From Duganella dendranthematis (GTDB lineage: Bacteria; Pseudomonadota; Gammaproteobacteria; Burkholderiales; Burkholderiaceae_D): DNA of 64,000 bases. A model generated the notes under the pieces. It made no database searches. It saw nothing but the letters and a program-made list of their open reading frames with translations, and was not told where the DNA came from. Positions 410 through 57,721 of this stretch are shown piece by piece (within the stretch, counting starts at the first letter, position 1; each line of letters starts with the position of its first letter). The translations under genes were made by a program, and so were the position numbers. The stretch covers positions 1,798,001 to 1,862,000 of the forward strand of contig NZ_CP051684.1 in NCBI RefSeq assembly GCF_012849375.1, written 5' to 3'.

Positions 410-1246
410 ATGGATATCGTACTCGCGCTGAAAGCCCTCATCATGGGCCTGGTAGAAGGTTTTACGGAATTCTTGCCGATTTCCTCTACTGGTCACCTGA
501 TCCTGACTGAGCACCTGCTGGGTTTCCACGGCATGGAAGAGAAAATGAAAGTGTTCGAGATCGTCATCCAGGCCGGCGCCATGCTGGCCGTGATCTGGGA
601 GTTCCGCGCCCGCATCATCGCCGTGCTGACCGGTCTCGGCGATCCAAAACAACAACGCTTCGCCACCAATGTGCTGATCGCCTTCATCCCGGCCGCCGTG
701 CTGGGCGTGCTGTTCGACAAGGCCATCAAGCAGGTGCTGTTCGCGCCGGTGCCGGTGGCGCTGGCCTTCATCATCGGCGGCTTCGTCATCCTGTGGGTGG
801 AAAAACGCGCCAAGGACAAGCCGACCTCGGCTCGCATCACCTCGGTCGACGATATCAAGCCGCTGGACGCGCTGAAAATCGGCATCGCCCAGGCGTTTGC
901 GCTGATTCCCGGCACCAGCCGCTCCGGCGCCACCATCATGGGCAGCATGATCTTCGGCCTGTCGCGCCAGGTCGCCACCGAATTTTCGTTCTTCCTGGCA
1001 ATTCCGACCCTGATGGGCGCCACCATCTACTCGCTGTACAAGGAACGCGCGCTGCTGTCGGCCGCCGACCTGCCGCTGTTTACCATCGGCACCGTGTCGG
1101 CGTTTATCTCGGCCTTCCTGTGCGTGCGCTGGCTGCTGCGCTATATCAGCTCGCATACCTTTACGGTTTTTGCGTGGTATCGCATCGCTTTTGGCCTGCT
1201 GGTGCTCGTGACCGCGTATACTGGCGCCATCGTCTGGGCCGAATAA
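410..1246 (+). CDS. uppP: Undecaprenyl-diphosphatase (UppP/BacA)
   Basis: This integral membrane enzyme removes one phosphate from undecaprenyl diphosphate, recycling the lipid carrier for peptidoglycan and other envelope polymers; its overproduction is known to give bacitracin resistance. The 278-residue length is typical. Residues 16-29 hold the family signature [14 protein letters not shown], and [10 protein letters not shown] lies near residues 165-175; these two motifs form the active site. The rest is a series of hydrophobic helices. The start ATG gives the standard [14 protein letters not shown]-terminus; no strong ribosome site is visible before it. recQ follows after 28 bp on the same strand. 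Confidence 0.96.
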
Positions 1247-1274
1247 CACTTTTCCGTAAAGCAGTCGCAGTAAC

Positions 1275-3095
<1,821 letters not shown>

Positions 3096-3098
3096 GCG

Positions 3099-4025
3099 TC
3101 AAGTGTGAATGATGTGGCGGTAACGGCTGGGCGGAGCGCCGATCGCGGCGCGGAAGCGGTGGCTGAAGTGGCTCAGGTCTGCGTAGCCGCAGGCGTCAGC
3201 GATCTGCTGCAATGGCTGGTCGCTGCTCTTTAGCAGCGCGCGCGCATGGTCGATGCGGCGCGCGGCGATCCATGCCGATGGCGGCATGCCGAACGACACC
3301 CTGAACATTCGCACCAGGTGATATTCCGACAGCGAGGCCAATGACGCCAGCATCCCCAGCGTGATGTTCTGCGCCAGGTGCGCTTCGATGAACTCCGCCA
3401 GCCGCCGGCGCACCACCGGCGCCAGTCCACCCCGCACGCGCTGCTGATGCTGCGGCACCGACTGCGCCAGCAGTAGATGGCTCAAGGTTTCATGCGCCAC
3501 CTCGTTGGCGCGCAGCTGCGCATCCGGCCCTTCCCATGGCATGGCTGCCAACGTTGCGCACAGGTGGGCGATACGCTGGTGTTCGAAATACGTGCGGTCG
3601 CTGAGCGTCAGCTCGCGCGGTTCGCGGTCCAGCTCCACCACCGCGCGCCGCGTGAAATGCTCGGGCAGGAAGTACAGGTGCACGAAGTGCATATGGCCGC
3701 GCACCGTCCAGCTGGACTCGTGCCAATCCGGCAAGGTGCATAGCCGCTGCGGCGCGCCGTAAATGCCCGGCAGCTCCGACCGCTCGGTGCGGTGGCCGCC
3801 TTCCAGGTACAGCGACAGCGTGTGGTGGCCCGGCTTGTCATAACTGGTTTCGGCCACCAGCGTATCGCGCCGCCAGATGGCGACCGCCAGTTCATCCCCC
3901 AGCCAGGCAAAGCGCTCCAGCTTGGCGTCGGTCTCCGACATGGTCTTGAAAACAGAGCGCGACAGCGCGCCTTCCGGCATGGATTGCGATTCAAGCGCGT
4001 TGGCGATGGCGGGACGTGGCGACAT
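3099..4025 (-). CDS. AraC-family transcriptional regulator
   Basis: The 308-residue protein has a variable N-terminal sensor domain and a C-terminal pair of helix-turn-helix motifs typical of AraC/XylS. Residues from about 205 show LAQNITLGMLASLASLSEYHLVRMFR, then the second helix-turn-helix with QIADACGYADLSHFSHRFR, the family hallmark. It is transcribed away from the EamA transporter gene, with about 110 bp between the starts, so regulation of that exporter is the natural guess. A shorter start at Met16 or Met29 is possible. Confidence 0.9.
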   Translation of the reverse strand: MSPRPAIANALESQSMPEGALSRSVFKTMSETDAKLERFAWLGDELAVAIWRRDTLVAETSYDKPGHHTLSLYLEGGHRTERSELPGIYGAPQRLCTLPDWHESSWTVRGHMHFVHLYFLPEHFTRRAVVELDREPRELTLSDRTYFEHQRIAHLCATLAAMPWEGPDAQLRANEVAHETLSHLLLAQSVPQHQQRVRGGLAPVVRRRLAEFIEAHLAQNITLGMLASLASLSEYHLVRMFRVSFGMPPSAWIAARRIDHARALLKSSDQPLQQIADACGYADLSHFSHRFRAAIGAPPSRYRHIIHT

Positions 4026-7776: not shown

Positions 7777-8286
7777 ATGACATCCATAATCTCCCTGTTG
7801 ATCATCCTCGCCACGGGGTTGGTGGTCTACGCCATCATCAAGAGCAATCCGGTCAAGCCGCAGCCATTGCCGCTGCCGAGCGGCGTGCCGTATGAGCCCA
7901 CTCTGCCGGATAGCGCGCCAGCGCTGCACTGGTCCGACGGCGGCCGCTTCATGGTGGAGCTGATGAACGAGTCGCGCTATCAGCCTACGCTGCAGGCGCT
8001 GGCCGGCGCGCATGGCGACAGCGCTGCTGCGGCGCCGTATGTGGCGACGCTAATGCCGGATGACCGCAACGCCTACGAGAACGAAGCGGTGGCGGTGTTC
8101 ATCGAAGGTCGCATGGTCGGCTATCTGTCGCAGAAGGCGTCGATCAAGTTCCGCGAACTGCTGCGCAAGAAGGAAGCCGTCGGCCAGTTGAGCACCGTCG
8201 ATGCGCAGGTACGCGGCGGCGCGCTGTGGCAGGGTAAGCGCTTGCAGTACATCGTGGTGCTGGACGTGGAGCCGCTGGAGAAATGA
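7777..8286 (+). CDS. Membrane-anchored protein with HIRAN-like domain
   Basis: The protein has 169 residues. One N-terminal hydrophobic helix (IISLLIILATGLVVYAII) is followed by a soluble domain. The segment LMPDDRNAYENEAVAVFIEGRMVGYLSQKASIKFRELL matches the pattern of HIRAN domains (loop with N-Y-E-N-E-A-V, then GYLS). HIRAN domains elsewhere bind DNA ends or accompany nucleases and helicases, but this form with a membrane anchor is of unknown role. Its stop overlaps the next start in ATGA, so the two are translationally coupled. Confidence 0.65.
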   Translation: MTSIISLLIILATGLVVYAIIKSNPVKPQPLPLPSGVPYEPTLPDSAPALHWSDGGRFMVELMNESRYQPTLQALAGAHGDSAAAAPYVATLMPDDRNAYENEAVAVFIEGRMVGYLSQKASIKFRELLRKKEAVGQLSTVDAQVRGGALWQGKRLQYIVVLDVEPLEK

Positions 8287-8663
8287 ACAGGCTTGCGGCC
8301 ACGTTGATGGTGCTCGCCGCGCCGGCGCTGGCCGCCGAGCCGCTGGCGATCCACTACAACGAGCGTCCGCCGTATCACTACACCATGAGCGGCATGGCGC
8401 AAGGCGAAGGCATCGACAAGCTGCTCGCTGCGCTGAGGGCCGCGAACATCCCCTACCAGTTGCGCAGCACACCGGCCAAACAGCAGTTGATCCTGTTGAA
8501 AGCGAATGTGCAGCCAGCCTGCATGCTGGCCTGGGTCGGCCTGCCGGGCCGCGAACGCGCCGGAAAACTCTCGGAGATAGTCTATGCCGACCGCCGCCTG
8601 TGGTGTACCCAGACGACGCCGGATGACGTGATGCAGCGCCTGAACCAAGCGCTGCGCAAATAA
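8283..8663 (+). CDS. Short periplasmic protein resembling a solute-binding protein lacking its second lobe
   Basis: A signal peptide (LAATLMVLAAPALA) is followed by IHYNERPPYHYTM and a segment that reads like the first lobe of family 3 amino-acid-type binding proteins (PAKQQLILLKANVQPACMLAWVG, then KLSEIVYADRRLWC). It passes directly to VMQRLNQALRK, which in full proteins is the end of the second lobe. At 126 residues it is about half the usual length, so it looks like an internal deletion that kept the frame. It overlaps the HIRAN-like gene by 4 bp and abuts trmB tail to tail. Function unknown. Confidence 0.6.
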   Translation: MNRLAATLMVLAAPALAAEPLAIHYNERPPYHYTMSGMAQGEGIDKLLAALRAANIPYQLRSTPAKQQLILLKANVQPACMLAWVGLPGRERAGKLSEIVYADRRLWCTQTTPDDVMQRLNQALRK

Positions 8664-8664
8664 T

Positions 8665-9384
8665 TTACTTCTTGGTGAACACCAGATCCCACACCCCATG
8701 GCCCAGCTTCAGGCCGCGGTTTTCAAACTTGGTCAGCGGACGATACGCCGGCTGCGGCGCATAGCCTTCAGCGGTATTCTGCAAGCCCTCTTCCGCACTC
8801 AATACTTCCAGCATCTGCACCGCGTAGTCTTCCCAGTCGGTCGCCAGATGGAGATAGCCGCCCACTTCCAGCTTCTGCACCAGATGCTTGACGAACGGCG
8901 ACTGGATCAGACGGCGCTTGTTGTGGCGCGCCTTGTGCCAAGGGTCCGGGAAGTAGATATGCACGCCGTGCAGCGAACCATCCGGAATCATGAAGTTCAA
9001 CACTTCCACCGCATCGTGCTGGATGGCTTTCAGGTTGGTCAGATTCTGCTCGCCGATCAGCTTCAGCAAACTGCCCACGCCCGGCGTGTGCACTTCCACG
9101 CCGATGAAGTCCTTCTCCGGCATCACGCCGGCGATGTGCGCCGTGGTGCCGCCCATGCCGAAGCCGATCTCCAGCACCACCGGCGCCTTGCGGCCAAAGG
9201 TCTGCTCGTAATCCAGCGGCGCTTTTTCGTAAGGGATCAGGAACTGCGGACCCAGTTCTTCCAGCGAACGCGCCTGCGCCGTCGACAGGCGGCCGGCACG
9301 GGTGACGAAACTGCGGATGCGGTGTTCGGTCGGGTCGTACAGCATGGCGCGCGCTGGGGCGTCTTTAGGCGTATCGGAAGACAT
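8665..9384 (-). CDS. trmB: tRNA (guanine-N7-)-methyltransferase
   Basis: TrmB uses S-adenosylmethionine to make m7G46 in the variable loop of many tRNAs. The 239-residue protein shows the SAM-binding motif [17 protein letters not shown], then [16 protein letters not shown], and the family-specific [18 protein letters not shown]. The C-terminus has [16 protein letters not shown]. The ATG at this position is preferred to an in-frame TTG 15 bp upstream. The divergent neighbour is the regulated glucosidase gene. Confidence 0.95.
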
Positions 9385-28252: not shown

Positions 28253-28314
28253 AGGGAATCGAACCCTCGTATGAAGCTTGGGAAGCTGCCGTTCTACCAT
28301 TGAACTACACCCGC
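28241..28314 (-). tRNA. tRNA-Gly (anticodon CCC)
   Basis: The 74-nt sequence with encoded CCA folds as a cloverleaf: acceptor GCGGGUG, D stem GUUC/GAAC, seven-base anticodon loop UUCCCAA with anticodon CCC, and T arm GGG-UUCGAUU-CCC. It resembles E. coli glyU. The anticodon stem has one mismatch, C28 against U42 (GCAGC with GCUUC). The gene's 5' half, from the anticodon to the first base, is the left attachment repeat of the island. Confidence 0.93.
28276..28314. repeat. Left attachment repeat (within intact tRNA-Gly)
   Basis: These 39 bp are identical to 57630-57668. They cover the tRNA from the anticodon stem 3' side (C40) to the first acceptor base. The left copy is joined to the tRNA 3' half, so it restores a complete gene. 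Confidence 0.88.
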
Positions 28315-28323
28315 ATGCCCCGC

Positions 28324-28353
28324 ATTCTATGCGGGTTTGACCGCTGTTGGCAA
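28324..28353 (-). promoter_or_regulatory. Island-borne promoter for tRNA-Gly
   Basis: On the minus strand TTGCCA (28348-28353) and TAGAAT (28324-28329) are 18 bp apart, ending 9 bp before the tRNA 5' end. The counterpart beside the right repeat has TTGTCA and TAGAAT at the same spacing. The element thus supplies a replacement promoter for the tRNA it interrupts. Confidence 0.75.
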
Positions 28354-28483
28354 CCTTGCCCTGATGGTTGCTGTGATCGGAAGTATGATGGCCGATGTCA
28401 CCAAGGTGTGATGGCCGACCAAGCAAGTTGGTGTGGACGATAAAAAACTAAAGGCGTCACCGACGTCAAGCTAACCGGCATCT

Positions 28484-30974: not shown

Positions 30975-34698
<3,724 letters not shown>

Positions 34699-35044: not shown

Positions 35045-35086
35045 GTGACAAGGTCCGGCGCTTATACCAACTCTTTGATACTGACA

Positions 35087-36127
35087 ATGCCACTATACGA
35101 ACTTTCTTCGGATTCAATAGCCGAAATCCCTACTGTAACCTATGCTTCACTTGGACTTCGTGAGCGGGAAGATGTTCAGAGAGTTCTTCGGGAACATATT
35201 GATGTTATATCGCCAGATACCCTCATTCTCGCTGAAGAGTTTGGGGAGTGGACAGACTCTCGCAGGCGTATTGACTTACTCGGTCTAGACCGTGATGGTT
35301 GCCTTGTCGTCATTGAGCTTAAGCGGTCAGAGGACGGTGGCCACATGGAACTCCAGGCGTTGCGCTATGCGGCAATGGTTTCAACTCTCAAGTTTGAACA
35401 AGCTGTCGATGTCCATAAAAAATTTAGAGAGTCACGTGGGCTACTTCCAGATTCAGCGGAAACTATCATCCGCGAATTCCTCGATATCGCTGACGGCCCA
35501 GTAGCGTTCAGCAACAAGGTTCGCATAATCCTGGCATCTGCCGACTTCTCTAAAGAAATCACGTCAACTGTTTTGTGGTTGAATGCGCAAGGACTTGATG
35601 TGACATGCGTCAAGATGCGCCCTCATTCTTTTCAAGGGCGAGTCTTGCTAGACATTGAACAGGTAGTTCCGTTGCCTGAGGCAGCTGCTTTTCAGGTTGC
35701 AATTCGCGAAAAATCGCTTGCGCAGCAAGCCGTCGCAGCCAATGGCCGCGACTTCACGCGATATCGTCTGACAACGCTTCAAGGCGAAATGCTTACCAAT
35801 TTGCCGAAGAGGCGATTCATATATCAAGTTGTTTCTGAGGCAATCAAGCTAGGAGTTAAACCGGCAGAAATCCTTGGCGTCATACCCTGGCGGCAAGCAA
35901 ATATGTTCATCTCTGCGCCTGGCCGATTATCCGGAGCCGCACTCATGTCCACTGATTCGGATAGATCGCCAACACGCTATTTTTGCGAAGACGATGAAGT
36001 GTTCCATGTCGATGACCACACGTACTCTATGAGCAACCAGTGGGGAACACGTACCGAAGAGGCAGTAAAGAAAATCCTAAAAATCCTCCCCGCTAATCAC
36101 GGCATACGGTACGAATACGAAGGATAA
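35087..36127 (+). CDS. DUF91/NucS-like nuclease domain protein
   Basis: The protein of about 346 residues has a PD-(D/E)XK site, RRRIDLLGLDRDGCLVVIELKR, where Asp and the E-x-K are the metal and catalytic residues. This matches DUF91, the NucS-type endonuclease domain. The middle has a second small domain around VTCVKMRPHSFQGRVLLDIEQVVPLPEA, and the C-terminus is unassigned. A GTG directly after the H-NS stop could give 14 more residues; the ATG giving MPLYELSSD is chosen. Probably a defence nuclease cotranscribed with the H-NS gene. Confidence 0.72.
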   Translation: MPLYELSSDSIAEIPTVTYASLGLREREDVQRVLREHIDVISPDTLILAEEFGEWTDSRRRIDLLGLDRDGCLVVIELKRSEDGGHMELQALRYAAMVSTLKFEQAVDVHKKFRESRGLLPDSAETIIREFLDIADGPVAFSNKVRIILASADFSKEITSTVLWLNAQGLDVTCVKMRPHSFQGRVLLDIEQVVPLPEAAAFQVAIREKSLAQQAVAANGRDFTRYRLTTLQGEMLTNLPKRRFIYQVVSEAIKLGVKPAEILGVIPWRQANMFISAPGRLSGAALMSTDSDRSPTRYFCEDDEVFHVDDHTYSMSNQWGTRTEEAVKKILKILPANHGIRYEYEG

Positions 36128-39969: not shown

Positions 39970-41109
39970 TTACGAATGCATCGTATTGATGATGTCAACG
40001 GCCTTCCTGCTCGCGTCATTCGGTGCAAGGTGGGCGTACCGCTGCGTCATCTTCGGATCGCTGTGACCGAGCAGCACAGACACTTCAAAAAGACTAACGC
40101 CGTTCTTAACAAGCTTTGACGCATAGCTGTGCCGTAACGTGTGCATCGTGACCTTGCCCCCCTTCTCTCTCACCACATCGGGATCATTCACGCCGGCACG
40201 ATCCATCGCCTTCTTAATTCCCTGCGCGGCATAGCCGCGTGCCATGCCTGACTTGTTTTCAAAGACGTAGCGTGCATCAGGCCGGCGCTCTGCCCGACGG
40301 CGTACCATCACTTCACGCAACCGATCTGTCATGAACAACACGTCTTCATTGTTGACTTTGCTGCGGTAGATGTTCAGCGTTCCGGCCTCAAGATTCACAG
40401 CCGTCCATGGCAAGTTCGCGGCCTCAGAATAGCGACAGCCGGTATCGAGAAGCATGATGACCAGATCGTAGTTGTCTTGGATATTGCGTTGCATCTCAGG
40501 GGTGCGATCCTCAGGCGCTTTAACGCCGCTTCTCGGTGATTTCGGATCGAGTTCGCGTAGCAATGCCGCTTCGTCGTTGGAATCGAGATAGCGCAGCCGA
40601 TACGCGGATTTCAACTGTGGAAAGACAACGTCACGATTCGTCTTGTAGCCAAGTCGCTGCATCTCACGCAGCGTTGAACTGATCAGGCCGATTTCATGTT
40701 TGATAGTGGCGGGCTTGTCGCCCTCGGCCTTCCGCTTCGCTACTAGTCGCTCGATATGCTTGGTCTGGATCTCATGAAGGAACAAATTCAACGGCAAGCC
40801 GTAGCATGGATTTTCGCGCTTGGTCTTCGGATCACGTTTGCTACCGAACATCTTGCGTGAGATTGATTCCATGCCGCGATAGTACGAATACTTCTTGCGT
40901 GGCTCCAGGTACTTGACCAAGGCATCGCGCAGTGAAATTTCTTCAGCCTCGCCCAGATAAGTTTCACTATGGATTTTGTTACGCATCTCACGCTCTACCT
41001 GCAACGCCTTTGTCTTGTTTGCAGTGCCGGTGCTGCCCACATACTTTTTATTTTTCGCCTGAAAAGCGTAATACCAGTTACTACTATTATCTCTCTTGTG
41101 CAGACCCAT
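39970..41109 (-). CDS. int: Tyrosine-type site-specific integrase
   Basis: The 379-residue phage-type integrase has an N-terminal arm-binding part (WYYAFQAKNKKYVGSTG), a SAM-like core-binding domain and the catalytic domain. The catalytic residues are Arg in LDTGCRYSEAANLPW, H-x2-R in MHTLRHSYASKL, and the second His and nucleophile Tyr in LLGHSDPKMTQRYAHL. The start MGLHKRDNSS is chosen; upstream codons are unlike the family. It probably inserted the island or a smaller element within it. Located mid-island, 12 kb from the left and 17 kb from the right repeat. Confidence 0.93.
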   Translation of the reverse strand: MGLHKRDNSSNWYYAFQAKNKKYVGSTGTANKTKALQVEREMRNKIHSETYLGEAEEISLRDALVKYLEPRKKYSYYRGMESISRKMFGSKRDPKTKRENPCYGLPLNLFLHEIQTKHIERLVAKRKAEGDKPATIKHEIGLISSTLREMQRLGYKTNRDVVFPQLKSAYRLRYLDSNDEAALLRELDPKSPRSGVKAPEDRTPEMQRNIQDNYDLVIMLLDTGCRYSEAANLPWTAVNLEAGTLNIYRSKVNNEDVLFMTDRLREVMVRRRAERRPDARYVFENKSGMARGYAAQGIKKAMDRAGVNDPDVVREKGGKVTMHTLRHSYASKLVKNGVSLFEVSVLLGHSDPKMTQRYAHLAPNDASRKAVDIINTMHS

Positions 41110-41228
41110 GTTGTTACCCCTGTAGTATACATTTGAAGACCATCCATCAATTTCCGATGAAAGAAAACGGTGGGACTCCACGCAGCTGCTGGACCTTACG
41201 CCTACGGAAGGCCCAGCAGGCACCTGTC

Positions 41229-43424
41229 TTAGTCGCGATACATTTTTAATGCGGACAATTTCTCGCCGTTCTTTTGCAGCGCCTCAGTCAGGGGAGTGCG
41301 TAAGCCGAGCCCAATGTATTTCCGCTTGGCAGTTTTGGCCTTCTCGTATCCGCGTTCAATTAGCAGCATCCCAAGCTTCCTTTTGGTGTAGCTGAACCCG
41401 AAGTAGTCTTTCGCCCACGTAGAGAAGGATTCATACGCCTCATCGAAGACCATTTCGAGGTATGGCCCTTCGACGCAACACTCGCGAATCCATGACCCCA
41501 CGACGTCCATTTCGCTGCGGTACTCCGCCGTAGCAGCAGCCACTGCTTTAGGAATTGGCAAGCCATGGTGTTGCCAGTCGAGGCATCCACGAATGGCCCA
41601 GTTCAAAATTCCAGGTAACTCCGCTTTCAGCTTGCTCTCCAAATTCGGATCACGATCCTCCTTCTTGAACGACACAGGAAAAGGAATCAGGCGCATACGA
41701 CGCCAGATACCTTCATCCGTCCCCTTAATAACCGGCTTATGATTACCGGCTACGAACATCTTATGAGTAGGGACAAAAGTAAATTGGCTCTGATACATAT
41801 GACGTGCCACGATCGGGTCGCCGCCAGTCATTGACTTGACAAGCGCTTCGCTGAAATGACGCCCTTCATCTACCTCACTCATGGCCACGAACCGTTTCCC
41901 CCGCAGGCTTGCGATGTCGCCAGATGGTCCACTGCTGTTACGCTGACGGTCGAGCAACAAGTCTCCCGATGCCTGCGCGCCGTAGTCACCCATCAACGAT
42001 TGAGTTACATTCAGGAATGTGCTTTTGCCATTGGCGCCGTAGCCATAACCGAAGCCCATGCACTGCTCACTGAGAGATGCAGTAAGTGAGTAGCCAATCA
42101 GACGCTGGAGATATGTAACGAGCTCCATGTCGCCGCCCATCACTTGCTCTAAGAACGTAATCCACTGCGGACAAGTCGATTCGAGTTGATGCGATGCGCC
42201 CGCTACCTGCGTAATCAACTTGGATTGGTCCGGCGCATGGAACTTGCCCGTCTTGAGATTGACATAGCCGTTTTGTACACCCAGCAGAAAGCCGTCGCTG
42301 TCCAATTTAGAGATCGGCAGCCCGATCCCCGGCTCAGACTTGAACAAAGTGATCATGTCCTTTATGCGCGTAGCACCTTCGGAGGCGAGCGCATGTTTTT
42401 TCAAGCGGGTTTTCACTGGCCCTTGATCCATTCCATCTGCCTCTTTGTGCAAGGCTTTTGCTACGTCCTTAGCCAACCCTTGGATGACGATATAACTAGT
42501 TGGCTCCCAGTAGACACCGTTCCACCGCAGCCAGCTATCGGTCTCAATCACGTAGCGTACTATGTCGCCGTAGAGTTCCGCGAGCTTTGCAGCGTTGCCG
42601 CTATCCGTGCAGTGCATATGCGCGGTTTTTTCGTACAGTCGAAACACGTTATCCACGACTTGCATCACCTCATCTTGTTCCATTGGCGGCTGGAACAGTT
42701 CATTGGCACGAACCGAGAACGCCTCCACTTCGGCTCTTGAGTGGCCGGCCTTCATCTGGCTCAACGCAAGGCGGAATAGCTTCTCGTTACGGCTGCCAGC
42801 AATGACCGGCTCGGCAGATACAGACCCTAAGTTGACGGAATCATGCGTAGGATGAGGGCCACGCTTCTCGGTCAGTCTGCGGACCATAGCTTCTGGCATT
42901 TCAATAGGCTGAGCAGCACCGCTTTTCCACTGATAGGGTTTGCCGCTAACAATAGACGGCGATGCGACAAAATAGCCGCCCTCGCCGCGTACATCGAGGC
43001 CGGGCATAAAACCGACCTTGTTACCGATACTCACACCTTGTGGGGATTTATAAACCACATGCATGCCACCGCTAGGCGTGTCGCTGCTGAGCGAGGACTC
43101 CAGCGCCCCGATTTCATTGCAAAACTTCTGCCATGATTCAAATCCTTGAGCTCCACTCTTCACATCGATATCCATGACGGTGCGGTCATTCAGCTTCCCT
43201 GTAGGAATACCGATATTATTCAACGATCCCGGCGGCCACCACGCCGCGACCTGCGCCAAATCGCTCGAAGCAGACTTAAAGCCTCCAGCAACTGCGGGGA
43301 TTTTTTTCCCGGGGACGAGTGGGAAGATTGCAATCCCTGCTTCGGCATATGCCCTTGCAGCATCTGGAAGCGACAGTTGATTGATTTCTGTCATGTTGGG
43401 CGTTGTAGCTATAGGCGAATTCAT
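41229..43424 (-). CDS. Prim-pol/D5-type primase-helicase
   Basis: The 731-residue replication protein has an N-terminal bifunctional primase-polymerase domain (VMDIDVKSGAQGF with the DxD metal site, then SGGMHVVYK). A middle D5_N region follows, then an SF3 helicase with Walker A GANGKSTFLNV, Walker B in FVAMSEVDEG, and KMFVAGNHKPVI. Such proteins replicate P4-like satellites and plasmids. It is transcribed toward the integrase, 120 bp away, forming a phage-satellite-like core. No origin is recognised nearby. Confidence 0.93.
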   Translation of the reverse strand: MNSPIATTPNMTEINQLSLPDAARAYAEAGIAIFPLVPGKKIPAVAGGFKSASSDLAQVAAWWPPGSLNNIGIPTGKLNDRTVMDIDVKSGAQGFESWQKFCNEIGALESSLSSDTPSGGMHVVYKSPQGVSIGNKVGFMPGLDVRGEGGYFVASPSIVSGKPYQWKSGAAQPIEMPEAMVRRLTEKRGPHPTHDSVNLGSVSAEPVIAGSRNEKLFRLALSQMKAGHSRAEVEAFSVRANELFQPPMEQDEVMQVVDNVFRLYEKTAHMHCTDSGNAAKLAELYGDIVRYVIETDSWLRWNGVYWEPTSYIVIQGLAKDVAKALHKEADGMDQGPVKTRLKKHALASEGATRIKDMITLFKSEPGIGLPISKLDSDGFLLGVQNGYVNLKTGKFHAPDQSKLITQVAGASHQLESTCPQWITFLEQVMGGDMELVTYLQRLIGYSLTASLSEQCMGFGYGYGANGKSTFLNVTQSLMGDYGAQASGDLLLDRQRNSSGPSGDIASLRGKRFVAMSEVDEGRHFSEALVKSMTGGDPIVARHMYQSQFTFVPTHKMFVAGNHKPVIKGTDEGIWRRMRLIPFPVSFKKEDRDPNLESKLKAELPGILNWAIRGCLDWQHHGLPIPKAVAAATAEYRSEMDVVGSWIRECCVEGPYLEMVFDEAYESFSTWAKDYFGFSYTKRKLGMLLIERGYEKAKTAKRKYIGLGLRTPLTEALQKNGEKLSALKMYRD

Positions 43425-51834: not shown

Positions 51835-52422
51835 TTGAATGAATTCAACAAAAAAATTGGTGATTTGATATCATCGCTATGGATGGATGAGTCCTCAAAA
51901 AAAGATTTCGTTAAAAATCCACATATTATGATGGAAAAATACGGAATTTTTCTAAGTGGATCCACCGAAATCATCGTCCTCATAGACACTCCCGATCTTG
52001 CAAATTTCATCTTGCCCGAAAAATTACCGGTAGACGATGCTCATGAGGATTTTCTTAGGAAGAATTTAGTCTGGTTTTGCCGAGGAAGCACATTCCGGCC
52101 TGATGACGCGAAATATTTTTCGCCAATAAGAATGAGCTATAACAAAATCCGGAGTGTTTATGATCGTATCATTCAAGAGCCTTTGCTATGCGAAAAAGGA
52201 GGAGAAATTATTGGTTTTCTGAAAAACCTTGATATTCCTTATTTTGAAAATGTAAAATCAGTGAATGTGCGACAAAATTCTACTAGTGTCGCATATATCG
52301 TAATACCGCTAGCACCAGCTGGAGCAAGTTCTGAGATCGAATTGCGAAAGGCCGCCCGTGCAAATGATTGGGTGACCTACGCATCCTTTATAAGCTATCT
52401 TTCTCTAGCTCCAAAGCAATAA
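51835..52422 (+). CDS. NHLP-like-leader-domain protein of the RiPP locus
   Basis: The 195-residue protein opens MNEFNKKIGDLISSLWMDES, followed by KDFVKNPHIMMEKYGIFLSGSTEIIVLIDTPDLANFILPEK. This matches the nitrile-hydratase-like leader peptide (NHLP) fold: D/KNP..MMEKYGI, then strand, then NFILPE. About 125 further residues follow, so it is longer than a typical precursor and could be a partner that recognises or carries the RiPP. It starts with TTG after AAGGA. It converges on the oxygenase gene with an 18-bp overlap and is the only plus-strand member of the group. Confidence 0.65.
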   Translation: MNEFNKKIGDLISSLWMDESSKKDFVKNPHIMMEKYGIFLSGSTEIIVLIDTPDLANFILPEKLPVDDAHEDFLRKNLVWFCRGSTFRPDDAKYFSPIRMSYNKIRSVYDRIIQEPLLCEKGGEIIGFLKNLDIPYFENVKSVNVRQNSTSVAYIVIPLAPAGASSEIELRKAARANDWVTYASFISYLSLAPKQ

Positions 52423-53223
52423 CGGATTATCTCCTTTTGCACCGATAAAGCAAGTTTGAACGATTCTTCGCCCTTCTTCGAATCCGCGAACCGCATGTGG
52501 ATTTCGCGTGTCTATAAGTATCAGATCGCCAATTTCCGGCTTTATACTAATTGGATCTGGTAGATCCACTCGCCTAAGGGTTCCTCTCGTTTCAATGAGG
52601 AACATGATACGATCAAGGGAAACGTTCCAAATCTCTAGCTCGCCCCCTTTTGCCGGGACATCGAGGTATGTTATCGCAGAAAACTGTCTGTCTAAGGAAG
52701 CGATTGATGGAGGAAGCCAATCAAGGTGTGGATTGGAATCGGCTTGCAGTTTCGCTCCAGGGGCAATTATCCGTGCCAATCCAATACAGGGCTGGAGTCC
52801 CATGAACGTCGCGACCTTGGCACCGCTCGGCCAAAGAGCATTGAGTAAAAATTTGATGCTGTCAATCGGTGATTCAAGAGGCATAAATTGACGAGAAATT
52901 GATTCCATATGCTCCTGACTGGTTCTCGCCAAGTCGCGACGAATACACTCAATATCATGCTGGCTAGTACTCGGATCTAATAAGAATTTATAAAATTCAC
53001 TAAATGGTACTCCGACCCTATCCGTGTCTGAATGATGAAGATGACCTGTTGCGTCAGAATATCGGTAGTTCTGCCTACCCTCATGATAAAAAAACCAATC
53101 TGACATCGCCGCAGATTGTTCTCGCCCACAAAAATTCTTTACTATTAAAGCTAGTGCAGATCTAGAAAATAGCGCATCAATACCGGCTACGTTAAGCTCT
53201 TTATCTATCAGAACTCCATCCAT
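52405..53223 (-). CDS. 2OG-Fe(II) oxygenase of the RiPP locus
   Basis: The 272-residue protein has the non-heme iron facial triad: His166-x-Asp168 in NPHLDWLPP and distal His243 in NPHAVRGFEEGRR, with Arg252/253 positioned to bind 2-oxoglutarate. A strand-rich core, ITYLDVPAKGGELEIWN, fits the double-stranded beta-helix. Such enzymes hydroxylate peptide side chains. GGAGGT precedes the chosen ATG, one base after the peptidase stop. It is the last gene of the radical SAM-precursor-peptidase-oxygenase operon, so hydroxylation of the peptide is inferred. Confidence 0.82.
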   Translation of the reverse strand: MDGVLIDKELNVAGIDALFSRSALALIVKNFCGREQSAAMSDWFFYHEGRQNYRYSDATGHLHHSDTDRVGVPFSEFYKFLLDPSTSQHDIECIRRDLARTSQEHMESISRQFMPLESPIDSIKFLLNALWPSGAKVATFMGLQPCIGLARIIAPGAKLQADSNPHLDWLPPSIASLDRQFSAITYLDVPAKGGELEIWNVSLDRIMFLIETRGTLRRVDLPDPISIKPEIGDLILIDTRNPHAVRGFEEGRRIVQTCFIGAKGDNPLLLWS

Positions 53224-53224
53224 A

Positions 53225-54322
53225 TTAACCTCCGGCTTTTGCTGTGAACGCCAAGTCTGCCTTAATTTCCCCTCCACTTGTCAGAAAGAATGAGGTGCCA
53301 TCTATTCCAACCTTCCTAAAGATCTGAAATCTGCTCATCGCAATAAAAGAGCGTTCCCAATAATAAAGTGGATCGATAGTGACATGCGCGGAAGGATGAA
53401 GAGTTTGAATAACGCCCTTGGCCTCACTATCCGAGTACACCTGTAGAGCATTACCAAATCTTTCAATTTCGAGCAAATTTCCACTAGCCGAATCCACCGC
53501 AACGTAAACAAAATCTTTAAAATTGGCACTATTGGTCCCATCCATCGGTATTATTGTATAATCGCCGTTCCCAGCGAGATCCACGACATCAATGGGAGCT
53601 AAAATATCCCCAGCACCACCTCCAAGGTTGAGAATTTCATTAAAGCCGTGCTCGCGTAAGGCCGACTGTGCAAGCTGGCTTTTAGTCAGAAAAGCTGAGG
53701 GCCGAAATGAAATTAGAGTGTGAGACGACTGCATAGCGGCGATGTTCTGGGGCCTAGGCGCCTTCTCATCGGACATTATCACTAAAGAATTTTTCCATGT
53801 TTCCCCCCAGGCAATTGGTGTCAGCCAACCATCGAGAAACTCTGGTGTTGCGACATACTTGTTTGCAGTGCTCCCATACCACGGATTTTGAATATATACA
53901 CCGCGCATCTCGCGGTTTCCCCCGACTTCTTCAGTCATTCGTACTGCACTAATCACCACCCAATGATTCCCTTTTTGCACGAGTACCAGGCACGGAATAC
54001 GCAGAAACTTCAAAGTGTAATATATCTGATCAAGTACGATCGACTTGTCAGTAGAGGAAAAGTCCTGGACTTCGAACGATATATCAACAGGCGTCTTAAT
54101 ATTGAGGCAAGCTGCAATACCCAACGGATCGGAGTATAGCTCCTCCGTTTTGAACCGCTCGTCGTTGTGTATAATTTGGTATGCTTCCGCTTGCGAGACT
54201 GGAATTTTCAAATTATCGAAGACCATCTTACAGCATGCAGCTCCGCAATAAAATGCGGTTTGCTGTTCAACACGTTCACATGGCGAAGCCACTTCTTCAA
54301 AAACAATGTTTTCAATAGTCAT
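53225..54322 (-). CDS. Stand-alone C39-like cysteine peptidase of the RiPP locus
   Basis: The 365-residue protein has the C39 peptidase pattern at its start: Gln21 and Cys26 in QTAFYCGAACCKMVF, His120 in KGNHWVVISAV and Asn146 in YIQNPWYG, the usual catalytic Cys, His and Asp/Asn order. C39 domains normally cut after double glycine at the N-terminus of an ABC exporter; here there is no transporter part, and the 200 C-terminal residues are unassigned and strand-rich. GGAGG precedes the ATG. It lies 45 bp after the precursor gene, so GG cleavage of the leader is the natural role. Confidence 0.8.
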   Translation of the reverse strand: MTIENIVFEEVASPCERVEQQTAFYCGAACCKMVFDNLKIPVSQAEAYQIIHNDERFKTEELYSDPLGIAACLNIKTPVDISFEVQDFSSTDKSIVLDQIYYTLKFLRIPCLVLVQKGNHWVVISAVRMTEEVGGNREMRGVYIQNPWYGSTANKYVATPEFLDGWLTPIAWGETWKNSLVIMSDEKAPRPQNIAAMQSSHTLISFRPSAFLTKSQLAQSALREHGFNEILNLGGGAGDILAPIDVVDLAGNGDYTIIPMDGTNSANFKDFVYVAVDSASGNLLEIERFGNALQVYSDSEAKGVIQTLHPSAHVTIDPLYYWERSFIAMSRFQIFRKVGIDGTSFFLTSGGEIKADLAFTAKAGG

Positions 54323-54367
54323 GACTTCGCCTCCAAGCTGATAAGCTTACGAAATTTCGCTCTTTTT

Positions 54368-54568
54368 CTAGTTAAAAAATAGCGATAACGTTGGTTCCGC
54401 CGCCGCCCCGCCAGTGACTGCTTTAATAGCGTCCTCGTCAAAGCTCTTTAACAGAGTCTCATCCACGACAACCCCGTTTTTCTCAAAGAATTCAATCGCG
54501 GACTCCACGTACTTGAAGCGTGCAACACGATCTGTCTTGAGTTTTTCCTTCAATTCATCTAGCGTCAT
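54368..54568 (-). CDS. RiPP precursor peptide with GG motif
   Basis: The 66-residue peptide has a helical charged leader (MTLDELKEKLKTDRVARFKY, then VESAIEFFEKNGVVVDETLL and KSFDEDAIKAVTGG) and a predicted core AAAEPTLSLFFN after the Gly-Gly. GGAG precedes the ATG. The leader resembles Nif11/NHLP-type leaders in layout but not clearly in sequence. It lies between the radical SAM gene (158 bp upstream) and the C39 peptidase gene on the same strand. Thr, Ser, Phe and Asn in the core are possible modification sites. The peptide is the substrate of the flanking enzymes, by position. Confidence 0.72.
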   Translation of the reverse strand: MTLDELKEKLKTDRVARFKYVESAIEFFEKNGVVVDETLLKSFDEDAIKAVTGGAAAEPTLSLFFN

Positions 54569-54726
54569 GATTTCTCCATAGAAAAGTAATTAATGCGAGA
54601 TAGCCCGCCCCAAATCCGGGTAAAACCCGAATACGTTGATTGTGCTCGTTTCATTTCAAGCAACCTCAAAAAACCGACCCAATCAAAATCACCAATACCG
54701 CAATATATAAACAGCCACAAATACTA

Positions 54727-55743
54727 TCAGCCAGCAATCATCGTTATATCGTGAATTTTTTTCCAGTTTTTTTCAACAGATTCAATAACATGTTCAATTT
54801 CCATTTCCTCATATATTAAGCTTAATTCATTCATTAAATCCTTATTTGAGTGCAAGTCGCGACAAATTTCACACACAGAATCAACCTCTGCAAACTTCGG
54901 CAGTCGCTCTATTAGATCAGGCCGATTTTTTATTATATTGTTATATAGCCTATCAAACCCAACTTCCTTAGCAATCCTTGCATGGAAATGATGAAATACT
55001 GAAGATAAAATATCTGCCGCGTTGTCTTCAAAAACATTTCCACAAATGATACCAGCTTCCTTATTGAACCCACCCGAACAACACGGATATACGGCCCCAT
55101 CGGGGTATATGGCTACGTCATAAATTGATGGCTTTCCGCAAGAATATTTATCGGAATCTGGCTTGTTATAACGTCGCCCCTTGAAATGCACTCTGGCCGC
55201 ACCAATTGGCATCACCATGCCAGAATAGATGCTTTCGGCCCCTCTTATTTTCGGTAAAAGATCCTCGACACGCTCTCCGGGATTCCAAAAATGGCCGAAT
55301 ATTTCAAGGCGTAAACCGATCTCCTCGCAACACTCTCCGATCCGATAAATGTTCTCTGGCGGGACAAACCGAGCATGCTCGGTGTCGTAACTGACGTCCA
55401 AAGCGTCCATACCAGCACTATGCAATCGCTTAAGGACATCCTTCGTGTATTCTGAGTTAGTTGCCCAATACCCTGAAGTTACAATGTGAAAAGGTTGATT
55501 AACGCCCGCAGCACGAGCTTTGATCATCGCATCAATTATGTCATCGATAAAAAGAAATGGGTCGCCGCCAGAAAATGCGAAACGTGTAACTGACGGCTGC
55601 TCGGCAAAAGAAATAATAAGAGGGACGATGATGTCTGGTGTAAATTTACCAGAGCCGACCACTTCTTTTGTATGGCAACAAAAATTACAACTCAGTGGGC
55701 AAGCTTGCGTATAGATAAATCCGACTATTGCGTAGTTTTTCAT
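54727..55743 (-). CDS. Radical SAM/SPASM peptide-modifying enzyme
   Basis: The 338-residue enzyme carries the radical SAM cluster ligands Cys15, Cys19 and Cys22 in ACPLSCNFCC and the GGDPFLF SAM-binding loop. A C-terminal SPASM-type set of cysteines follows (SCGKPSIYDVAIYPDGAVYPCC and VCEICRDL), which bind auxiliary iron-sulfur clusters. SPASM enzymes modify RiPP peptides by crosslinking, epimerisation or thioether formation. It is the first gene of the operon, with the precursor next. GGTAGGG lies upstream of the ATG. Confidence 0.9.
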   Translation of the reverse strand: MKNYAIVGFIYTQACPLSCNFCCHTKEVVGSGKFTPDIIVPLIISFAEQPSVTRFAFSGGDPFLFIDDIIDAMIKARAAGVNQPFHIVTSGYWATNSEYTKDVLKRLHSAGMDALDVSYDTEHARFVPPENIYRIGECCEEIGLRLEIFGHFWNPGERVEDLLPKIRGAESIYSGMVMPIGAARVHFKGRRYNKPDSDKYSCGKPSIYDVAIYPDGAVYPCCSGGFNKEAGIICGNVFEDNAADILSSVFHHFHARIAKEVGFDRLYNNIIKNRPDLIERLPKFAEVDSVCEICRDLHSNKDLMNELSLIYEEMEIEHVIESVEKNWKKIHDITMIAG

Positions 55744-57629: not shown

Positions 57630-57668
57630 GCTTGGGAAGCTGCCGTTCTACCATTGAACTACACCCGC
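57630..57668. repeat. Right attachment repeat (tRNA-Gly 5' half)
   Basis: The 39 bp equal the left repeat at 28276-28314. Here they are not joined to a tRNA 3' half, so no functional tRNA results. Beyond them lies the tRNA promoter of the backbone, TTGTCA and TAGAAT on the minus strand at 57678-57707 with an 18-bp spacer. Confidence 0.87.
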
Positions 57669-57721
57669 GTGCCTCGCATTCTACGCGGCTTTGCGCGGGA
57701 TTGACAACTTCCCAGCCACCG

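Follow-up and report, generated by a model that had tools for sequence, protein, structure and literature searches.

A probable RiPP cassette joining an EpeE-like radical SAM enzyme, a Gly-Gly precursor, a C39-like peptidase, and an oxygenase in an integrative island of Duganella dendranthematis

An integrative island in the window (the whole 64-kb stretch of DNA analyzed here) carries a RiPP cassette that is real and probably functional. Its parts are of known kinds; the gene combination and the precursor family look new. Four minus-strand genes follow one another in the order radical SAM enzyme, 66-residue peptide (pep66), C39-like peptidase, and 2OG-Fe(II) oxygenase, with gaps of 158, 45, and 1 bases (Table 1). 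We think it somewhat probable that together they produce a ribosomal peptide, matured in the cell by the steps proposed below. A preliminary description of this DNA had listed these four frames and a fifth, NHLP-like one, and a check of ORFs and sequence finds all five in place with the motif positions correct. Of the ribosome sites it mentioned, GGAG or GGAGG sequences of this type precede the ATG of three genes, those for the peptide, the C39-like protein, and the oxygenase. The oxygenase start is an ATG one base beyond the C39-like gene; a longer frame of 290 aa, opening with GTG, exists as well. The NHLP-like gene is convergent, and its 3' end shares 18 bases with that of the oxygenase gene. 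Rfam returned nothing at gathering score between 51000 and 57800, and promoter-like and terminator-like sites showed no excess over shuffles.

Table 1. Features of the window and the basis on which each was placed
Feature	Position in window	Strand	Basis
Integrative island with cassette, ~29.4 kb	28276-57708		Direct repeats, tRNA-Gly, integrase, primase
Lamassu LmuA/LmuC/LmuB	31056-34698
PDC-S11 candidate	35045-36127
Phage-type integrase	39970-41223
Primase	41229-43424
NHLP-like N-terminus protein, 195 aa, TTG start	51835-52422	+	TIGR03793 below cut-off
2OG-Fe(II) oxygenase, 272 aa	52405-53223	-	PF13640, HxD...H
Stand-alone C39-type cysteine peptidase, 365 aa	53225-54322	-	C39 fold model, Cys/His
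Precursor peptide pep66, 66 aa, GG at residues 53-54	54368-54568	-	Profile recovery
Predicted core of pep66, AAAEPTLSLFFN, residues 55-66	54371-54406	-	Inferred from GG site
Leader part of pep66, residues 1-54, Gly-Gly end	54407-54568	-	-4/-7/-12 rule
Radical SAM/SPASM enzyme, EpeE/YydG-like peptide epimerase homologue, 338 aa	54727-55743	-	PF04055, PF13186

The island is bounded by a 79-nt direct repeat (28276-28354 and 57630-57708, a spacing of 29,354 bases), the first copy of which begins inside a tRNA-Gly. The two copies are 87% identical, with the first 39 bases exact, and GC content drops from ~63% to 38-54% between 28 and 57 kb. The cassette lies at the far end of the island, within which a Panacea protein is also encoded.

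The radical SAM enzyme exceeds the cut-offs of both the Radical_SAM (PF04055) and SPASM (PF13186) models of Pfam. Its C-x3-C-x2-C motif, reported earlier at residues 15, 19, and 22, is well kept, C15 and C19 in 31/31 and C22 in 30/31 aligned rows (alignment and profile were built from 30 of 80 listed homologues plus the window protein). The closest relative, P0001 (81%), has Tyr at residue 22, the third Cys of the motif, possibly through a sequencing error or as a changed motif. Which known enzyme does it most resemble? Among NCBIfam models, that of the YydG peptide epimerase ranks first (TIGR04078; E 1e-27), but with 97.4 bits against a cut-off of 300 the enzyme stays below the score for the curated family. 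In a structure search, the enzyme profile matched EpeE/YydG (PDB 8ai1) at E 2.6e-37 over profile positions 4-313 of 340, and the next other protein after EpeE came at E 3e-8. The cysteines of SPASM and hydrogen-donor type, C222, C221, C202, C291, and C294, are kept in 31/31 rows, and D209 is found in 23/31, being replaced in 8/31 homologues. C222, the second Cys of a PCC motif, aligns to the EpeE residue taken as Cys223, an assignment that uses a chain offset of 25 derived from tag length and entry 8ai6 rather than a number printed by the alignment. Entry 8ai6, used for the offset, has Ala at the position of the Asp aligned to D209, an Asp that we take to be EpeE D210. Cys223 is reported as the proposed hydrogen donor of EpeE in the review PMC8326336. 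In a quick tree of 48 rows, which carried long-branch warnings, the window enzyme falls into a clade of 34 rows (support 99), and two annotated YydG rows (Macrococcus and Macrococcoides) lie outside it. As far as can be read from sequence, the enzyme is EpeE-like, yet outside the curated family.

Likeness to EpeE/YydG predicts epimerization, a change without mass shift, and the mass shift of -2 suggested in the preliminary description therefore gives way to that expectation. Homology to EpeE over most of the length, a Cys aligned to the hydrogen donor, and conserved cluster cysteines all argue for this reading. The reaction may nevertheless differ from that of EpeE, given how far the enzyme falls short of the YydG cut-off (97 of 300 bits) and its separate branching. 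It is rather unlikely, in our view, that the pathway is the same but the enzyme carries out another reaction on the core, for example a C-C or C-O crosslink on Phe, or an oxidation; the low score, the separate clade, and the two Phe of the predicted core would suit such chemistry, whereas EpeE is by far the closest solved relative (2.6e-37 versus 3e-8), the donor-aligned Cys is invariant (31/31), pep66 has no Cys, and the C-terminal ends of three related peptides (L011, L012, and L053, introduced below) contain no Phe, Tyr, or Trp. The absence of Cys from pep66 makes thioether formation on it unlikely, and a sactipeptide or ranthipeptide reading was ruled out for that reason. Viperin identity (pVip, E 1.5e-7) was likewise ruled out, since the match is confined to the radical SAM core and EpeE is far closer.

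Is the 66-residue frame a precursor gene? Six other loci encode a peptide of 64-75 residues directly after the enzyme or overlapping it by a few bases: Paracidobacterium (L005), Rhizobium sp. BK650 (L006), Palleronia (L008), Bradyrhizobium cytisi (L011), Streptomyces sp. F001 (L012), and an IMG/VR phage contig (L053). These six peptides were picked by position and by eye, as were their starts. A leave-one-out profile test searched 5,734 ORFs (30-200 aa) drawn from the window and these and other fetched loci, excluding four that repeat the window stretch, and recovered the window peptide at E 2e-12, right behind the six training peptides. Of the other six, five were recovered at 1.8e-7 or better and the Rhizobium peptide at just 0.028, rank 8. 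The preliminary description had held that a frame lacking conservation would count against the finding; a family peptide adjoins the enzyme in seven loci, window included and other taxa among them, so this point falls in the finding's favor. Five of the nine loci L005-L013 (E at most 1e-30, of 23 listed) carry the family peptide, and the other four (L007, L009, L010, and L013) carry other kinds of candidate precursor. The count leaves aside L029, L060, and L068 as weak profile matches. The phage-contig peptide is 38% identical to pep66.

The family peptides finish in a short hydrophobic or beta-branched stretch: TLSLFFN in the window and STFAIITIF, STNIITVTT, STFIITITK, SSAVVTIIH, NSNLITVL, and PYPIVILLPIRR in the relatives. 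The pep66 leader has a Gly-Gly end with V-4, I-7, F-12, and L-15. This agrees with the -4/-7/-12 rule for GG leaders as given in PMC10885120 and PMC6363468. Gly-Gly is not family-wide, being found in L006 alone among the six relatives, with Gly-Ser in L005. No second copy of pep66 was found in its own genome at E up to 1, and no NHLP or Nif11 leader on pep66 was found among NCBIfam models at E up to 1. From that library, which we take to include the YydF model, pep66 drew just two matches (E up to 1), both weak and to unrelated models, so it is not assigned to the YydF family. On the phage contig, which has terminase, tail, and endolysin-like genes, the radical SAM relative (43%) and its precursor (8001-9265) lie on the strand opposite to their phage neighbors. 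At L060 (808-3296), an EpeE-like enzyme stands behind a 172-aa protein whose leader is weakly similar (E 0.0033) and which contains SDAASSVADIATDAAS-type repeats; after the enzyme comes a 299-aa protein lacking a Pfam match, and the layout of L058 is similar.

The C39 pattern described earlier also bears up under alignment of the window protein with six of seven others (one fragment was omitted): C26 and H120 are present in 7/7, and the third position is Asn in six and Asp in one. The protein falls below the gathering score of Pfam PF03412 (15.6 versus 22 bits), but its structure model is predicted to adopt a C39 fold with the catalytic Cys and His, and the best structural match of that model is 6mpz, a GG protease solved with its leader. 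The C39 domain spans approximately residues 6-188, an extra C-terminal domain (approximately 211-360) follows, and the protein itself ends in Gly-Gly; the fold search says little of this second domain, as the listed matches hardly cover it. The last two residues (window codons 53228-53233) are Gly-Gly or Gly-Ala in 8/8 homologues, although the stretch before them is variable. No Pfam match to a fused ABC transporter, as in the PCAT/AMS proteins, was found in the 365-aa protein. Together, the Gly-Gly with V-4, I-7, and F-12 and the model best matching 6mpz point to cleavage of pep66 by this peptidase. Counted against it is that LahT150 is impaired by Phe at -12, as stated in PMC6363468. A distant C39-like relative of 472 aa at L061 (7894-10651) has no radical SAM neighbor within the stretch read; its gene precedes two frames named by eye, a small one resembling PepSY and one resembling a signal peptidase.

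The oxygenase scores 34.8 bits with PF13640 (2OG-FeII_Oxy_3; cut-off 27), and the HxD...H residues noted before, H166, D168, and H243, are kept in 5/5; in domain score and motif alike it resembles the known 2OG-Fe(II) oxygenases. A protein search listed four proteins besides the window's own. Its plasmid relatives comprise eight records at 24-35% identity; among four plasmid regions inspected, one, on a Streptomyces plasmid, places the gene beside LanC-like and GrrM genes, and the rest have other settings. With a mean pLDDT of 48.6, the structure model of the oxygenase could not support a fold search. The L068 locus (959-3116), from a different genome of the order, has an EpeE-like enzyme flanked upstream by a 174-aa candidate precursor that contains four PTPTPTPVNVPP-type repeats and downstream by a 2OG-Fe(II) oxygenase (PF13640, 61.3 bits), making this locus a multi-core RiPP candidate. 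BLAST finds no significant similarity between its oxygenase and that of the window, so the pairing of an EpeE-like enzyme with an oxygenase may have arisen twice.

How might these parts work together? The gene identities, the precursor family, the GG pattern, and the C39 fold model are computed. From there we infer the reactions, their order, the product, and the action of oxygenase and protease on pep66. In the hydrophobic C-terminal core of pep66, the EpeE-like enzyme would abstract the C-alpha hydrogen of at least one residue, and Cys222 would return a hydrogen on the opposite face to give one or more D-residues. The oxygenase would then hydroxylate one core residue. Finally, the C39-type peptidase would recognize the leader helix (V-4, I-7, and F-12) and cut behind Gly53-Gly54, freeing approximately AAAEPTLSLFFN. 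By analogy with the epipeptide, the product may be membrane-active.

Do all four genes belong to one pathway, as had been proposed? Two pairs of protein clusters suggest so. For P0003 (radical SAM, 64%) and P0088 (C39-like, 42%), the longest contig of each cluster is 29310 bp; for P0082 (C39-like, 67%) and P0090 (oxygenase, 58%), it is 15471 bp. Source labels are identical within each pair, and from the equal bp figures the members of each pair seem to share a metagenome contig. The remaining C39-like entries have no bp match to any radical SAM or oxygenase contig. Along with the seven enzyme-precursor loci and the EpeE-like/oxygenase pairing of L068, these pairs favor the four-gene reading. 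Counted against it are the six related loci, in which BLAST found no C39-like or oxygenase relative (within 2.5-2.8 kb per side at L011), a Gly-Gly that is not family-wide, the failed oxygenase model, and the dependence of contig sharing on equal bp. Distinctly improbable, we think, is that these are two neighboring units, a minimal enzyme-precursor RiPP pair and an unrelated peptidase/oxygenase pair that came in with the island. Related pairs elsewhere do manage without the latter two genes, and G231 holds a distant C39-like relative near a signal-peptidase-like frame (named by eye) with no radical SAM gene within the stretch read; however, the layout is tight (gaps of 45 and 1 bp), the GG pattern of pep66 suits a C39 partner, P0003 and P0088 both occur on 29310-bp contigs, and L068 makes a similar pairing.

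The fifth gene fares differently, and here the one-pathway claim finds no support. Residues 10-64 of its product match the NHLP leader model TIGR03793 at E 3e-10, with 39.8 bits against a cut-off of 50.9. Searches of plasmids, viral contigs, and the fetched loci turned up nothing related to it. Its membership in the pathway is not supported, and we do not count it. That the NHLP-like protein is a second precursor or partner in a five-gene pathway seems unlikely: its leader-like domain and its place in the same low-GC patch (38% GC) speak for this, while its convergent orientation, the ~130 residues beyond the leader-like part, and the lack of relatives in those searches speak against it.

Draws of genomes gave few matches, with the window's own genome counted each time. 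The radical SAM profile, at E 1e-25, matched in 2/369 genomes of the class, 4/398 of the phylum, and 2/399 of the order; the C39-like profile matched in 2/399 of the order. In the genus, 22/74 genomes have a radical SAM match, but the 21 besides the window's own are partial and none is better than 1.4e-16; at family level, the enzyme is absent from the 73 other genus genomes searched. Plasmids gave 11 radical SAM records, all at most 29% identical, and no C39-like relative. No radical SAM relative was found in phage records, nor any C39-like, oxygenase, or NHLP-like relative in viral contigs at the sensitivity of the search.

How would the product leave the cell? The preliminary description saw no transporter, and three ABC ATPase queries, taken from the epipeptide locus L072 and from L013 and run at E 1e-4 against frames of at least 120 aa, likewise gave zero matches in the 64 kb. 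The same queries found ABC proteins within 2.5 kb of the enzyme in L013, L072, and L073, also when the other locus's query was used. None was found near the enzyme in L005, L008, L012, L028, and L053 (~8 kb per side) or within 1.1-2.8 kb per side in L007, L011, L060, and L068. In L006 an ABC protein lies 6.2 kb from the enzyme, and in L029 one lies inside a sugar operon. It is quite possible, if short of probable, that the product is kept inside the cell as a signal, a cofactor-like molecule, or an anti-phage molecule rather than secreted as an antimicrobial. The missing ATPases at the window and five other loci, set beside their detection in epipeptide loci, are consistent with this, as are the Lamassu genes of the island and the sister pair on a phage contig. 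On the other side, the search covered ABC ATPases, and an exporter may lie elsewhere; the genome has three more C39 frames, one of 739 aa.

Among known systems, the epipeptide pathway (epeXEPAB/yydFGHIJ of Bacillus and relatives) comes closest in its EpeE-like radical SAM/SPASM enzyme, hydrogen-donor-type Cys, and short adjoining precursor. The cassette differs in its precursor family, an enzyme under the family cut-off, a C39-like peptidase paired with a GG leader in place of the different peptidase of epipeptide loci, an added 2OG oxygenase, and no ABC exporter found in 64 kb; an adjacent peptidase and ABC exporter of epipeptide type are annotated in L072 and L073 but have no counterpart in the window. 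Proteusins of the polytheonamide type also combine an epimerase (PoyD) with a stand-alone cysteine protease (PoyH) acting at a GG-type leader end, according to PMC10885120 and PMC8326336. Unlike theirs, the window precursor has no NHLP or Nif11 match, and the window enzyme is EpeE-like; PMC8326336 reports no significant homology of EpeE to proteusin epimerases. The C39 proteases of the PCAT/AMS type (LahT, PCAT1, and ComA) share the fold, the Cys and His, and the GG substrate pattern, whereas the window-type protein lacks a transporter domain, has Asn for Asp in 6/7, and carries an extra C-terminal domain with its own G-[GA] C terminus. The preliminary description knew of no characterized pathway with exactly this set, and none came to light here: the open full texts surveyed (reviews, epipeptide papers, and protease papers) describe neither the gene set nor the precursor family, which is weak evidence of absence as the survey covered few subscription papers.

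Few EpeE-type peptide epimerases have been characterized so far, according to the review PMC8326336. The precursor family is common to the window genome, Rhizobium, Bradyrhizobium, Palleronia, Streptomyces, an acidobacterium, and a phage contig, and apparently two genes suffice. It thus offers simple substrates for studying EpeE-like recognition and whether the reaction is always epimerization. The C39-like protease and oxygenase partners would offer a transporter-free route to short D-residue peptides, and the cassette raises the question of what role such a peptide has where no exporter is obvious. A broader speculation, which we consider doubtful, is that the window shows a more elaborate form of a so far unnamed RiPP class, minimal, epimerized, and exporter-less, found in several phyla and a phage, each member consisting of one EpeE-like enzyme and one short leader peptide with a tiny beta-branched or hydrophobic C-terminal core. 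The products of such a class would act intracellularly where mobile elements and their hosts are in conflict, and here the G-[GA] tail of the C39 protease would be a built-in product mimic gating or inhibiting the protease.

Two further neighborhoods of EpeE-like enzymes are worth recording. GNAT acetyltransferase genes adjoin the enzyme-precursor pair in Palleronia (L008, 9182-9706) and in Bradyrhizobium (L011, 2131-2607). On an Allochromatium plasmid (L028, 5417-8996), the gene of an EpeE-like enzyme is accompanied by another radical SAM gene and by a short peptide that ends in STSIVTIVY; the trio lies within a type III CRISPR locus, with cmr genes on one side and csm6 on the other.
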